This document shows positions 17,869 through 20,390 of a stretch of DNA of 37,985 nucleotides, piece after piece (position 1 is the stretch's first letter; each line of letters opens with the position of its first letter). The notes below the pieces were generated by a model. That model ran no database searches. It was not told the DNA's origin and saw only the letters and a list, made by a program, of their open reading frames with translations. Origin of the DNA: Alphaproteobacteria bacterium (GTDB taxonomy: Bacteria; Pseudomonadota; Alphaproteobacteria; Rhodobacterales; Rhodobacteraceae). Made by a program: the position numbers and the translations under genes. Location: contig JAAAPG010000200.1 in the NCBI GenBank assembly GCA_009908405.1, forward strand, positions 1 through 37,985, written 5' to 3'.

Positions 17869-17891
17869 GCGCGGCGCGCGTCACGCGCCAG

Positions 17892-17936
17892 AAATGAAAA
17901 CGGCGGATCGAGCTGCTGCCACTGCCCGATCCGCCG
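17892..17936 (-). terminator. Intrinsic terminator/attenuator in the mraZ (dcw) 5' leader
   Basis: Perfect 10-bp stem CGGCGGATCG (17901-17910) / CGATCCGCCG (17927-17936); on the minus strand followed by TTTTCATTTC, before the mraZ ATG at 17868. Confidence 0.75.
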
Positions 17937-18199
17937 ACTGTCCCATCGCTGGGTGCCCGGTTGGCGCTCGCTTCCTTGGGGGGAGGGGATGCTGCTCGCG
18001 AGCGCGCCGGATCTGTGTTTTGGAAGATAAAGCGGGTGCCTGTATGAACTCTGCCTCTGCGGGGTCTTGGTGCCCCTGTGATGCCCGTTTATCTTGGAAC
18101 AATGATTGCCATGGGATTTCATGGTAATCAATCATCTTCTGGCAGATTTTTGAAAAATATCCTGGGAGACCGACCCCAACATACAGAATTAAATCTCTG
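17893..18199 (-). ncRNA. Candidate UpsM-like sRNA/leader RNA upstream of mraZ
   Basis: Region between a sigma-70-like promoter and the leader terminator, in the same genomic place as the R. sphaeroides UpsM sRNA. No sequence homology was tested. Confidence 0.45.
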
Positions 18200-18205
18200 A
18201 TATTG

Positions 18206-18234
18206 ATAATCCTATCTACATATTGTGAGAACAA
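18206..18234 (-). promoter_or_regulatory. Candidate sigma-70 promoter for the dcw leader
   Basis: Minus strand TTGTTC (18229-18234) - 17 nt - GATTAT (18206-18211) in an AT-rich stretch. Confidence 0.45.
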
Positions 18235-18388
18235 AAATAGATCACATCTAAATAAGTTGTCGGAACAGGCCTGTCCAAGGATGATGCATCTGTTCCCGTA
18301 AAATCCCGATATCTTGCCGACCAGTACCGGAGTGTTGCGGTTCTGACACAGGCTTAACGGCTTTCGGCGCGAAAGCGCATGAAAAATA

Positions 18389-18418
18389 CGCCCGAATCAC
18401 GGCCAAGTGATTCGGGCG
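18389..18418 (-). terminator. Intrinsic terminator of mrp
   Basis: Perfect 12-bp stem CGCCCGAATCAC-GGCCAA-GTGATTCGGGCG; on the minus strand followed by TATTTTTC; lies about 60 nt past the mrp stop (18482). Confidence 0.85.
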
Positions 18419-18481
18419 TTACGCCAATCAAAGGGCACATCGCAGATTCCATGTAATCCCGAAAGGCGAGCGGCAGAAGGC

Positions 18482-19540
18482 TCAGAGCGATGCGATCAAT
18501 TGATCTGCAATCCGCGCATAGGCTTGCGCGACCAAGCTGTCCGTGGCCGCGACCGGCACACCGCCGTCCCCGGACAGGCGCACTTCCAGGCTGAGCGGCA
18601 ATTCTCCCAGAAAGGGCAGGCCCTGTTTTTGCGCCTCGCGCCGGACCCCGCCCTCGCCGAAGATATGCTCCTCGTGCCCGCATTGCGGGCAGATGAAGGT
18701 GGACATGTTTTCGATCAGGCCAAGCACGGGGGTTTTCAGAGTGTCGAACGCGCGCAGCGCCTTGCGCGCATCCAGCAGCGCCACATCCTGCGGGGTCGAT
18801 ACGACAATTGCGCCACGCACATCGAACTTGCTGCACAAGGTAAGCTGTATATCTCCCGTGCCCGGTGGCATGTCCACGATCAGGACATCCAGCGCGCCCC
18901 ATTCAACCTGTGTCAGCAATTGTTGGAGCGCGCCCATCAGCATCGGCCCGCGCCAGATGACGGCCTCGTCCGCTTTCATCATCAGCCCGATCGAGATCAT
19001 GCGCACGCCATGCGCTTCTGGCGGAATTATGCGCTTGCCATCGGGGGACGCCGGGCGCTTGTCGACACCCATCATCTTTGGCTGGCTGGGGCCGTAGATA
19101 TCGGCATCCAGCAGGCCCACGCGCAGCCCCTTGCGCTCAAGGGCCACTGCCAGGTTCGCCGCGACCGTCGATTTGCCGACCCCACCCTTGCCAGAGCCGA
19201 TGGCGATCAGGTTGGCCACACCGGGAACGGCCTGCCGCCCCTCTTGCGGCGTCGGATGGCGTCCGATCTTCAGCTTGGGTTCCGGTTTCGGCGGTGTATG
19301 CGACGTCAACGCGACCGCTGCCGATTGGACGCCGGGCAGCTCGGTCACAACGCGTTCGGCCTGCGCGCGTACCTCGGAATACGCCTTGGCGATCTCGGCT
19401 GACGGAGTTTCAATCACGAAACGGACGGATTGACCATCAACGACCAAGGCGCGAACCAGGTCTCGGGCGACAAGAGTGCCCCCATCCGGCAAGGCAACCG
19501 TGTCGAGCGCGGCCAATATGTCGTCATGCGTTGGGGTCAT
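18482..19540 (-). CDS. mrp: Iron-sulfur cluster carrier / P-loop ATPase Mrp (ApbC)
   Basis: IGSGKGGVGKSTVAANLAVALERKGLRVGLLDADIYGPS, DVLIVDMPPGTGD, ENMSTFICPQCGHEEHIFGEGG. Confidence 0.94.
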   Translation of the reverse strand: MTPTHDDILAALDTVALPDGGTLVARDLVRALVVDGQSVRFVIETPSAEIAKAYSEVRAQAERVVTELPGVQSAAVALTSHTPPKPEPKLKIGRHPTPQEGRQAVPGVANLIAIGSGKGGVGKSTVAANLAVALERKGLRVGLLDADIYGPSQPKMMGVDKRPASPDGKRIIPPEAHGVRMISIGLMMKADEAVIWRGPMLMGALQQLLTQVEWGALDVLIVDMPPGTGDIQLTLCSKFDVRGAIVVSTPQDVALLDARKALRAFDTLKTPVLGLIENMSTFICPQCGHEEHIFGEGGVRREAQKQGLPFLGELPLSLEVRLSGDGGVPVAATDSLVAQAYARIADQLIASL

Positions 19541-19787
19541 CTGTGGCTCCGTTTCTAAACTCGATGATAAAATGGGCATGACGCGGCGGGCGACAAGGGC
19601 CAAAACACCGCCGCAGGCGCGGCACGCGCTGTGGGGTCCTACCGTGTCAGAGACCTTTGCCGCGGCTTCGCCGATGAATTGGCGCCTTCTTCGCACATGT
19701 TTTTACCAGTTGATCGAAGGCGCGCCCATTCTTTGAGCGGAATCCGAATTTACCCAACGTAAGCATGACTCTAGCGCATAGCGGCAT

Positions 19788-19822
19788 TGCAGCATTCTCC
19801 ATTGTGCAAATGCAGCATTCTC
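19788..19822. repeat. Two perfect 12-bp direct repeats TGCAGCATTCTC upstream of the DUF1127 gene
   Basis: TGCAGCATTCTC at 19788-19799 and 19811-19822, 23-bp period, about 60-90 bp before ATG 19879. Confidence 0.6.
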
Positions 19823-19878
19823 TTATCTTCATTTGTAACAGGCCGGGTTGGCCGAGACAGTTTCAAAGGTGCTTCGAA

Positions 19879-20091
19879 ATGGCGCATATCGCAGAAAATA
19901 GCGGCACGGTTGGCGCAAATCTGCCCTTCTTCGGGCTGGTGAAGCGTATCTCGGACGCGGTCGCACGCCGCCGGGTCTACAACCGAACATATGCCGAGCT
20001 GAATAACCTGACCACCCGTGAACTGGATGACCTGGGGATCAGCCGGTCGATGATTTCGCGCCTCGCCTATGAGGCTGCATTCGAGAATTGA
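19879..20091 (+). CDS. Small DUF1127 protein (CcaF1-like by synteny)
   Basis: RRVYNRTYAELNNLTTRELDDLGISRSMISRLAYEAAFEN is DUF1127-like; immediately upstream of the CCTCCTCCC hairpin array. Confidence 0.88.
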   Translation: MAHIAENSGTVGANLPFFGLVKRISDAVARRRVYNRTYAELNNLTTRELDDLGISRSMISRLAYEAAFEN

Positions 20092-20094
20092 GTT

Positions 20095-20162
20095 TCAGGC
20101 CCTACCCTCCTCCCGGGGCTTGATTACGGCGGCGGCTGTTTCCTCCTCCCTCGGCCGCCGCC
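20095..20162 (+). ncRNA. CcsR/cuckoo-type sRNA, unit 1
   Basis: Hairpin 20095-20123 (TCAGGCCC/GGGCTTGA) and hairpin 20128-20162 (GGCGGCGGC/GCCGCCGCC), each with CCTCCTCCC in the loop (20106-20114, 20142-20150). Confidence 0.8.
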
Positions 20163-20201
20163 AGATATACCGCATCGGTTTTCGGACCTGGCTGCGGAAC
20201 A

Positions 20202-20274
20202 GAACGTTCGCCCTTATCCTCCTCCCAAGGGCGTTCGCAAGGTCGCCGGCGTCCTCCTCCCTGCCGGTTGCCTT
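20202..20274 (+). ncRNA. CcsR/cuckoo-type sRNA, unit 2
   Basis: Hairpins around CGCCCTT/AAGGGCG (20209-20233) and AAGGTCGCCGGC/GCCGGTTGCCTT (20239-20274), loops carrying CCTCCTCCC (20218-20226, 20253-20261). Confidence 0.8.
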
Positions 20275-20300
20275 CACGAAGGGGCCCTAGGCCCATGACA

Positions 20301-20390
20301 TTGTTTCGGCCCCCCTCCTCCTCCCTGGGGTCGTACAAAAATCGGCGGCAGTCCCCTCCTCCTCCCTGGGACTGTCGCCTTTTTGTTTTG
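20301..20390 (+). ncRNA. CcsR/cuckoo-type sRNA, unit 3, ending in an intrinsic terminator
   Basis: Hairpin TTGTTTCGGCCCC/GGGGTCGTACAA (20301-20338) and GGCGGCAGTCCC/GGGACTGTCGCC (20344-20379), loops with CCTCCTCCC (20317-20325, 20358-20366), then TTTTTGTTTTG. Confidence 0.82.
20344..20390 (+). terminator. Terminal hairpin of the sRNA array; potentially bidirectional terminator shared with fliP
   Basis: 12-bp stem flanked by ACAAAAAT upstream and CTTTTTGTTTTG downstream; fliP stop on the opposite strand at 20405. Confidence 0.75.

Follow-up and report, generated by a model that had tools for sequence, protein, structure and literature searches.

The closest described system is the ccaF1-CcsR1-4 operon of Rhodobacter (Cereibacter) sphaeroides, of the cuckoo or CIN1 group, in which a DUF1127 gene, ccaF1, is followed by four tandem two-hairpin RNAs that present CCUCCUCCC in their loops. 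Control of these RNAs by RpoH, and their maturation by RNase E and CcaF1, are established in that species. A second known element that bears on the locus described here is PhaR, a PHB-binding repressor whose repression is relieved by PHB. Outside the CcsR RNAs, the same anti-Shine-Dalgarno loop motif is carried over variable stems by NfeR1/alpha-r14 (RF02344), SmelA075 and SmelA099 of Sinorhizobium, which have several hairpins (PMC10746234, PMC3927594). Unlike CcsR, NfeR1/alpha-r14 has its own sigma-70 promoter and three or four hairpins, and a DUF1127 operon is not described in the passages of these papers that were covered. MmgR (alpha-r8) of S. meliloti is also an anti-Shine-Dalgarno sRNA, and its promoter is bound by PhaR at a site nearly identical to one found here (PMC12542648, PMC7143759); however, according to the same partial sources it is a single 77-nt RNA of another family, activated by NtrC, which is not part of an array and for which no DUF1127 gene is reported.

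The locus under study lies in a window of 37,985 nucleotides, by which is meant the whole stretch of DNA that was analysed. It shares with ccaF1-CcsR1-4 the order of a DUF1127 gene followed by tandem two-hairpin RNAs, the loop motif and, as predicted from sequence, an RpoH-like promoter and a terminator, but it holds three units instead of four, and their stems have diverged to below the Rfam gathering score.

A three-unit CcsR-like array behind a DUF1127 gene

The sequence CCTCCTCCC occurs six times on the + strand of the window, at 20106, 20142, 20218, 20253, 20317 and 20358, against an expectation of 0.28 copies, and none of 100 shuffles reached six. The whole 2.58-Mb genome contains eight copies, six of them within the array at 20106-20366 and two elsewhere. 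The minimum-energy fold of the region (306 nt, -132.7 kcal/mol) places all six in hairpin loops and is more stable than that of every shuffle (z = -4.2); exact count and fold therefore agree with the earlier note, which had described six motifs, each in a hairpin loop. Its description of close pairs also stood, the hairpins of a pair being ~4-6 nt apart in the fold, but the spacing of 30-40 nt that it gave between pairs was slightly off, as the pairs are separated by ~46 and ~26 nt. The final hairpin (20344-20379) runs into TTTTTGTTTT, the T-tract that the note had pointed out, and by sequence and fold the stretch 20344-20389 on the + strand is a predicted Rho-independent terminator, which the terminator scan missed because its loop limit is 8 nt.

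Covariance model R1, for which 26 hairpin pairs were taken from other genomes and the window was excluded (its E-values are rough), finds exactly three units in the window, all on the + strand. Unit 1 (20088-20169; hairpins 20095-20123 and 20128-20162, loops 20106-20114 and 20142-20150) scores 54.4 bits (E = 2.1e-9), unit 2 (20199-20279; hairpins 20209-20233 and 20239-20274, loops 20218-20226 and 20253-20261) scores 33.9 bits (E = 1.9e-5), and unit 3 (20299-20386; hairpins 20307-20333 and 20344-20379, loops 20317-20325 and 20358-20366) scores 73.5 bits (E = 4.5e-13). The Rfam CcsR1 model (RF02791) also matches three stretches, with E = 1.5e-8 for the best, 3.2e-8 and 0.006, and gives units 1, 2 and 3 scores of 40.0, 22.2 and 41.1 bits. 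Since none of these reaches the gathering score of 65.3 bits, the locus is not filed under RF02791 itself. The RF02344 (alpha-r14) model, at 48.7 bits, likewise stays below its threshold of 58.8 bits in the window, where Rfam gives no match at gathering thresholds. Matches at lower thresholds to 6C, ar7, Scr3202, BjrC80, mir-290, anti-hemB and a riboswitch were rejected as relatives, being weak and in several cases plainly driven by the C-rich loop.

Conservation of the hairpins was assessed in two ways. For 204 hairpins taken from 31 loci, matching each 5' arm with its own 3' arm gives a mean score of 25.8, compared with 14.1 for re-dealt arms (standard deviation of the shuffled means, 0.37). 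In an alignment of the window array with 14 close relatives (15 sequences), 19 of the 53 stem pairs show double-sided changes, 88.8% of the cells are paired, a share that falls to 53% or less once the partners are slid, and the covariation score is matched by no shuffle. Five of the six helices are paired in 88-100% of the cells and have double-sided changes (92% and 95% in unit 1, 94% for helix 3 in unit 2, 88% and 100% in unit 3); helix 4, the second of unit 2, is weak, at 50%. The loops are constant across the 15 arrays. Selection on the loop, which the earlier note had suggested from stems that differ between units, is thus supported, because the loops stay constant while the stems covary, and the loop conservation on which that suggestion depended holds in the homologous loci. 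The test by covariance model that the note had proposed came out in its favour with the independent model, and with Rfam CcsR1 below the curated threshold.

The DUF1127 gene occupies 19879-20091 on the + strand and encodes a CcaF1-like protein of 70 aa (Pfam PF06568, E = 3.3e-13); the first loop lies 14 nt past its stop codon, in the same direction. A longer version starting at 19765 was rejected, as this start lies upstream of the promoter and the relatives begin with MA near 71 aa. The nearest named relative of the protein is that of Roseibaca sp. Y0-43 (84% identity), and its nearest named relatives as a group are found in Roseibaca (79-84% identity), then in Natronohydrobacter and Roseinatronobacter, nearly all of them with the same six-loop array. 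On one side of the locus lies the divergent mrp/apbC gene (18482-19549), which flanks it in the relatives also; on the other, from 20405 onwards, fliP and further flagellar genes are convergent. The DUF1127 gene, the divergent mrp/apbC and the six-loop array in these three genera support the claim that this is the orthologous ccaF1-CcsR locus with three copies. With CCUCCUCCC in all six loops, paired hairpins with covarying stems (helix 4 being weak) and a DUF1127 gene directly upstream, the locus is CIN1/cuckoo and CcsR-like, and the array itself adds one more case to a known RNA family. Elsewhere in the window, a gap of ~600 bases (17869-18481) upstream of mraZ, in the dcw cluster, has no Rfam match; R. 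sphaeroides makes the UpsM sRNA upstream of mraZ.

Of 151 genomes of the family, each listed under its own genus label, 109 have the paired motif; the reversed-pattern control gave few matches, chiefly in array-bearing genomes. A DUF1127 ORF precedes the first loop by 3-67 nt at 24 of 31 loci, the window included, and the arrays range from 2 to 26 loops. The largest, L013 (G147:C1:334949-336119), consists of near-identical three-hairpin repeats; the known copies of R. sphaeroides number four. Related RNAs also occur on viral contigs. Genes for alpha-r14 (NfeR1-family) sRNAs score above the Rfam threshold on the IMG/VR contigs L099, L102, L104, L138, L157 and L173, adjoined by a phage-type helicase in L104 and L157 and, in L157, by an exonuclease and a sliding clamp as well; these are phage-borne anti-Shine-Dalgarno RNAs. 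A CCTCCTCCC hairpin pair is carried by L134 (3870-3952), where it lies between a phage-type repressor and replication genes, and by the similar contigs L103, L109 and L110.

PhaR-type dyads in the promoter

Upstream of the DUF1127 gene, three elements were recognized on the + strand; two of them are dyads, which the earlier note had not pointed out and which tell the most about the locus. Dyad 1, CGGCATTGCAG (19782-19792), agrees with the PhaR core published as CTGCNNNGCAG at all but one position and is kept in relatives. Dyad 2, ATTGTGCAAATGCAGCAT (19801-19818), is conserved across genera at the locus and overlaps a -35-like TTGTGC (19802-19807); its centre is of 4 nt, not of 3 nt as in the PhaR operator. 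The -10-like CTTATCTT (19822-19829), which stands out by column conservation, reads CCATGTT or CTATTTT in relatives and is of RpoH type by comparison. A sigma-70 scan found no promoter. Alignment of 22 upstream regions displays a conserved layout, namely a dyad TGCTGCATRGCAGCA, ~30 bp further on TTGTGCANNYGCAGCA, and then C(C/T)ATnTT, in which the conserved columns correspond to an RpoH-like -35 and -10, the -35 being overlapped by the second dyad. The arrays that pass Rfam CcsR1 (L026 and L027) have the same promoter dyads.

The first conserved dyad contains CTGCNNNGCAG, which is the PhaR site published for R. sphaeroides (available passages of PMC12542648). This operator of R. sphaeroides and Paracoccus is the same dyad as the one at the locus, where many relatives have it exactly. 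In the same genomes the phaP genes have the core twice, and phaP of the window's own genome has CTGCGGTGCAG twice. A matrix trained on the operators of phaP (the phasin gene) only gives 15.6 bits at 19778-19796, which encompasses dyad 1, just upstream of the RpoH-like promoter; it is the sole site above 10 bits on either strand of the window. Over 8,000 background windows the best score was 17.5, at the promoter of a second DUF1127 gene (L041), and the next was 10.7. Among the locus promoters of PhaR-containing genomes, 22 of 23 exceed the 99th percentile of the background. The promoter thus contains a CTGCNNNGCAG-type operator, with one mismatch, in a genome that encodes PhaR (PF07879, E = 2.4e-27).

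The gene at L041 lies in the window's own genome (contig C293) and shares the double-dyad promoter, as TGCTGCATAGCGGCA and TTGTGCAGGCGCAGCA, but comes without a CCTCCTCCC array. Conversely, L352, L364 and L400 have the dyad promoter immediately ahead of a hairpin array, and no DUF1127 gene was recognized in between; the dyad promoter can travel with the RNAs alone.

The R. sphaeroides operon is described as driven by an RpoHI/RpoHII promoter (PMC10253847), and PhaR is not mentioned in the passages covered of the CcaF1 and StsR papers (PMC10253847, PMC8307010). The locus may then be an ordinary RpoH-driven CcsR locus whose dyads are sites of another regulator, or elements of the promoter or of DNA structure, with PhaR uninvolved. 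Four observations make this unlikely, the first being the score given by the phaP-only matrix. The second is the recurrence of the same elements at PHB genes. Exact copies of the 15-mer TGCTGCATRGCAGMA number 69, spread over 62 of the 151 genomes; the reversed control gave no copy. Thirty-five sites precede a DUF1127 gene with an array, two such a gene that lacks exact loops, and seven an array at which a simple search saw no DUF1127 gene; one (L328) lies near a contig end with the second dyad and a downstream ATG, five, from five genera, are placed upstream of phaC at a distance of exactly 37-38 bp, and 19 have no clear assignment. In three further genera (L386-L388), the divergent phaZ and phaC genes have the second element, TTGTGCANNNGCAGCA, between them. 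Since TGCTGCATRGCAGMA precedes phaC and TTGTGCANNNGCAGCA separates phaZ from phaC, both promoter elements recur at the phaC/phaZ control region. Matches to TTGTGCANNNGCAGCA in G003 and G124, outside any DUF1127 locus, were discounted as chance. Two tandem copies of GTGCANNCGCAGCA stand before a small gene at L394 (G138:C5), possibly a further PhaR target.

The third observation concerns genomes that lack PhaR, which is present in 146 of the 151. Two complete genomes, G135 and G003, have neither PhaR nor PhaC and have kept the DUF1127 gene and the array; both dyads are absent from their promoters, in which TTGTG and the -10-like region are kept. By my reading, at least one dyad is kept at 23 of 23 loci of PhaR-containing genomes and at neither of the two PhaR-less loci (Fisher p = 0.003, a value that comes from two genomes only and ignores kinship). 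G107 was rejected as a case of PhaR loss, as its PhaC is on a broken contig end and its dyads are near-intact; the lack of PhaR there probably reflects a gap in the assembly. Fourth, the EMSA-proven PhaR site at mmgR of S. meliloti, CAATTGTGCACCGCAGCATTA (excerpts of PMC12542648), is the same as dyad 2 except for one spacer base fewer.

To judge from sequence comparison, PhaR probably binds at the dyads. The sign of regulation is uncertain because dyad 1 precedes the -35, a position that would suit an activator too, and since both dyads lie between the divergent mrp and DUF1127 genes, control may be exerted on mrp instead or in addition. A PhaR-type operator at the ccaF1/CcsR locus is not mentioned in the searched passages of the CcsR, CcaF1 and PhaR literature, although Billenkamp 2015, Grutzner 2021 and Reinkensmeier 2015 possibly mention one.

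Complements of the loop

The earlier note had proposed that the anti-Shine-Dalgarno-like loops could bind AG-rich sites, and the genome sequence offers support for this. Outside the array there are two perfect complements of the 9-nt loop, and both precede plausible start codons by 4-8 nt, an ATG (ABC transporter ATPase) in one case and a GTG (MFS transporter) in the other. In total, 8- or 9-nt complements immediately ahead of a plausible start codon single out 20 candidate genes. Nine of them are transport genes, and the others include genes for an ATP-grasp CoA ligase, an enoyl-CoA hydratase, a [2Fe-2S] subunit, a SoxA-type cytochrome and a hydrogenase small subunit. Among the predicted targets are the ABC ATPase (L001), a TRAP DctP protein (L081), a Peripla_BP_4 protein (L080) and the ATP-grasp CoA ligase (L078). 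This list fits an anti-Shine-Dalgarno mechanism without proving it and is suggestive only, because a GGAGG core is itself a ribosome-binding signal and is expected at strong sites.

Alternatively, the chief role of the loops might be to sequester CcaF1, Hfq or another RNA, as a sponge or decoy would, rather than to act as antisense elements against ribosome-binding sites, with the arrays of up to 26 hairpins titrating the partner. Copy number does grow by tandem duplication, up to the 26 loops of L013, and the adjacent gene is CcaF1-like, CcaF1 being an RNA-binding protein in R. sphaeroides (passages of PMC10253847). The related NfeR1 loops, however, silence the mRNAs of ntrB and of ABC transporters through base-pairing where translation begins (PMC10746234), the flhR mRNA is a reported target of CcsR1-4 (PMC8307010; both papers as far as covered), and the two perfect complements in the present genome precede start codons, all of which makes a sponge quite improbable as the main function. 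That the hairpins serve mainly as a 3'-UTR stabilizer and terminator of the DUF1127 mRNA, with no activity in trans, would suit an array that begins within 15 nt of the stop codon and ends in a terminator, but it is very hard to credit, given that mere stability would not require a constant loop on changing stems and that the promoter-array loci L352, L364 and L400 have no recognized DUF1127 gene in between.

A proposed link between PHB and the control of the CcsR RNAs

Antisense loops under joint RpoH and PhaR control are the reading preferred here: judged from sequence, the locus is probably a CIN1-type operon driven by RpoH and repressed by the PHB-sensing PhaR, whose loops would block ribosome-binding sites, many of them of transport genes. 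The RNA array is of a known kind; the new part is the promoter and its probable link to PhaR and PHB. For the transcription, processing, sign of regulation and targets of the operon, I infer the following course. The RpoH-like promoter would give a transcript of the CcaF1-like DUF1127 gene with three CcsR-type sRNAs in its 3' UTR, and this precursor would probably be cut by RNase E. Each sRNA would use its two constant CCUCCUCCC loops to base-pair with extended Shine-Dalgarno sequences, such as GGGAGGAG and its like, and would thereby block the translation of a group of mRNAs among which uptake systems are well represented. PhaR would repress the operon in the absence of PHB, and PHB granules would derepress it by drawing PhaR away. 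Carbon overflow would in this manner add to the stress input from RpoH, the CcsR RNAs would rise, and uptake and catabolism would be braked.

It is moderately likely that the same holds throughout the Rhodobacteraceae, that is, that the PhaR regulon includes the DUF1127-CcsR operon and that PhaR and RpoH jointly control an anti-Shine-Dalgarno array, through which carbon-storage status would be converted into translational repression of uptake genes, in parallel to PhaR and MmgR in rhizobia. Cereibacter sphaeroides allows a direct test of this, since phaR, phaC, ccaF1 and CcsR are all open to genetic work there. If true, the promoter result would link riboregulation by the stress-induced CcsR and CcaF1 with the control of PHB storage, and PHB accumulation would be a physiological signal for RNAs that have so far been discussed mainly under oxidative and heat stress. 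Control of anti-Shine-Dalgarno sRNAs by PhaR would then be a theme common to the Rhizobiales, with MmgR, and the Rhodobacterales.
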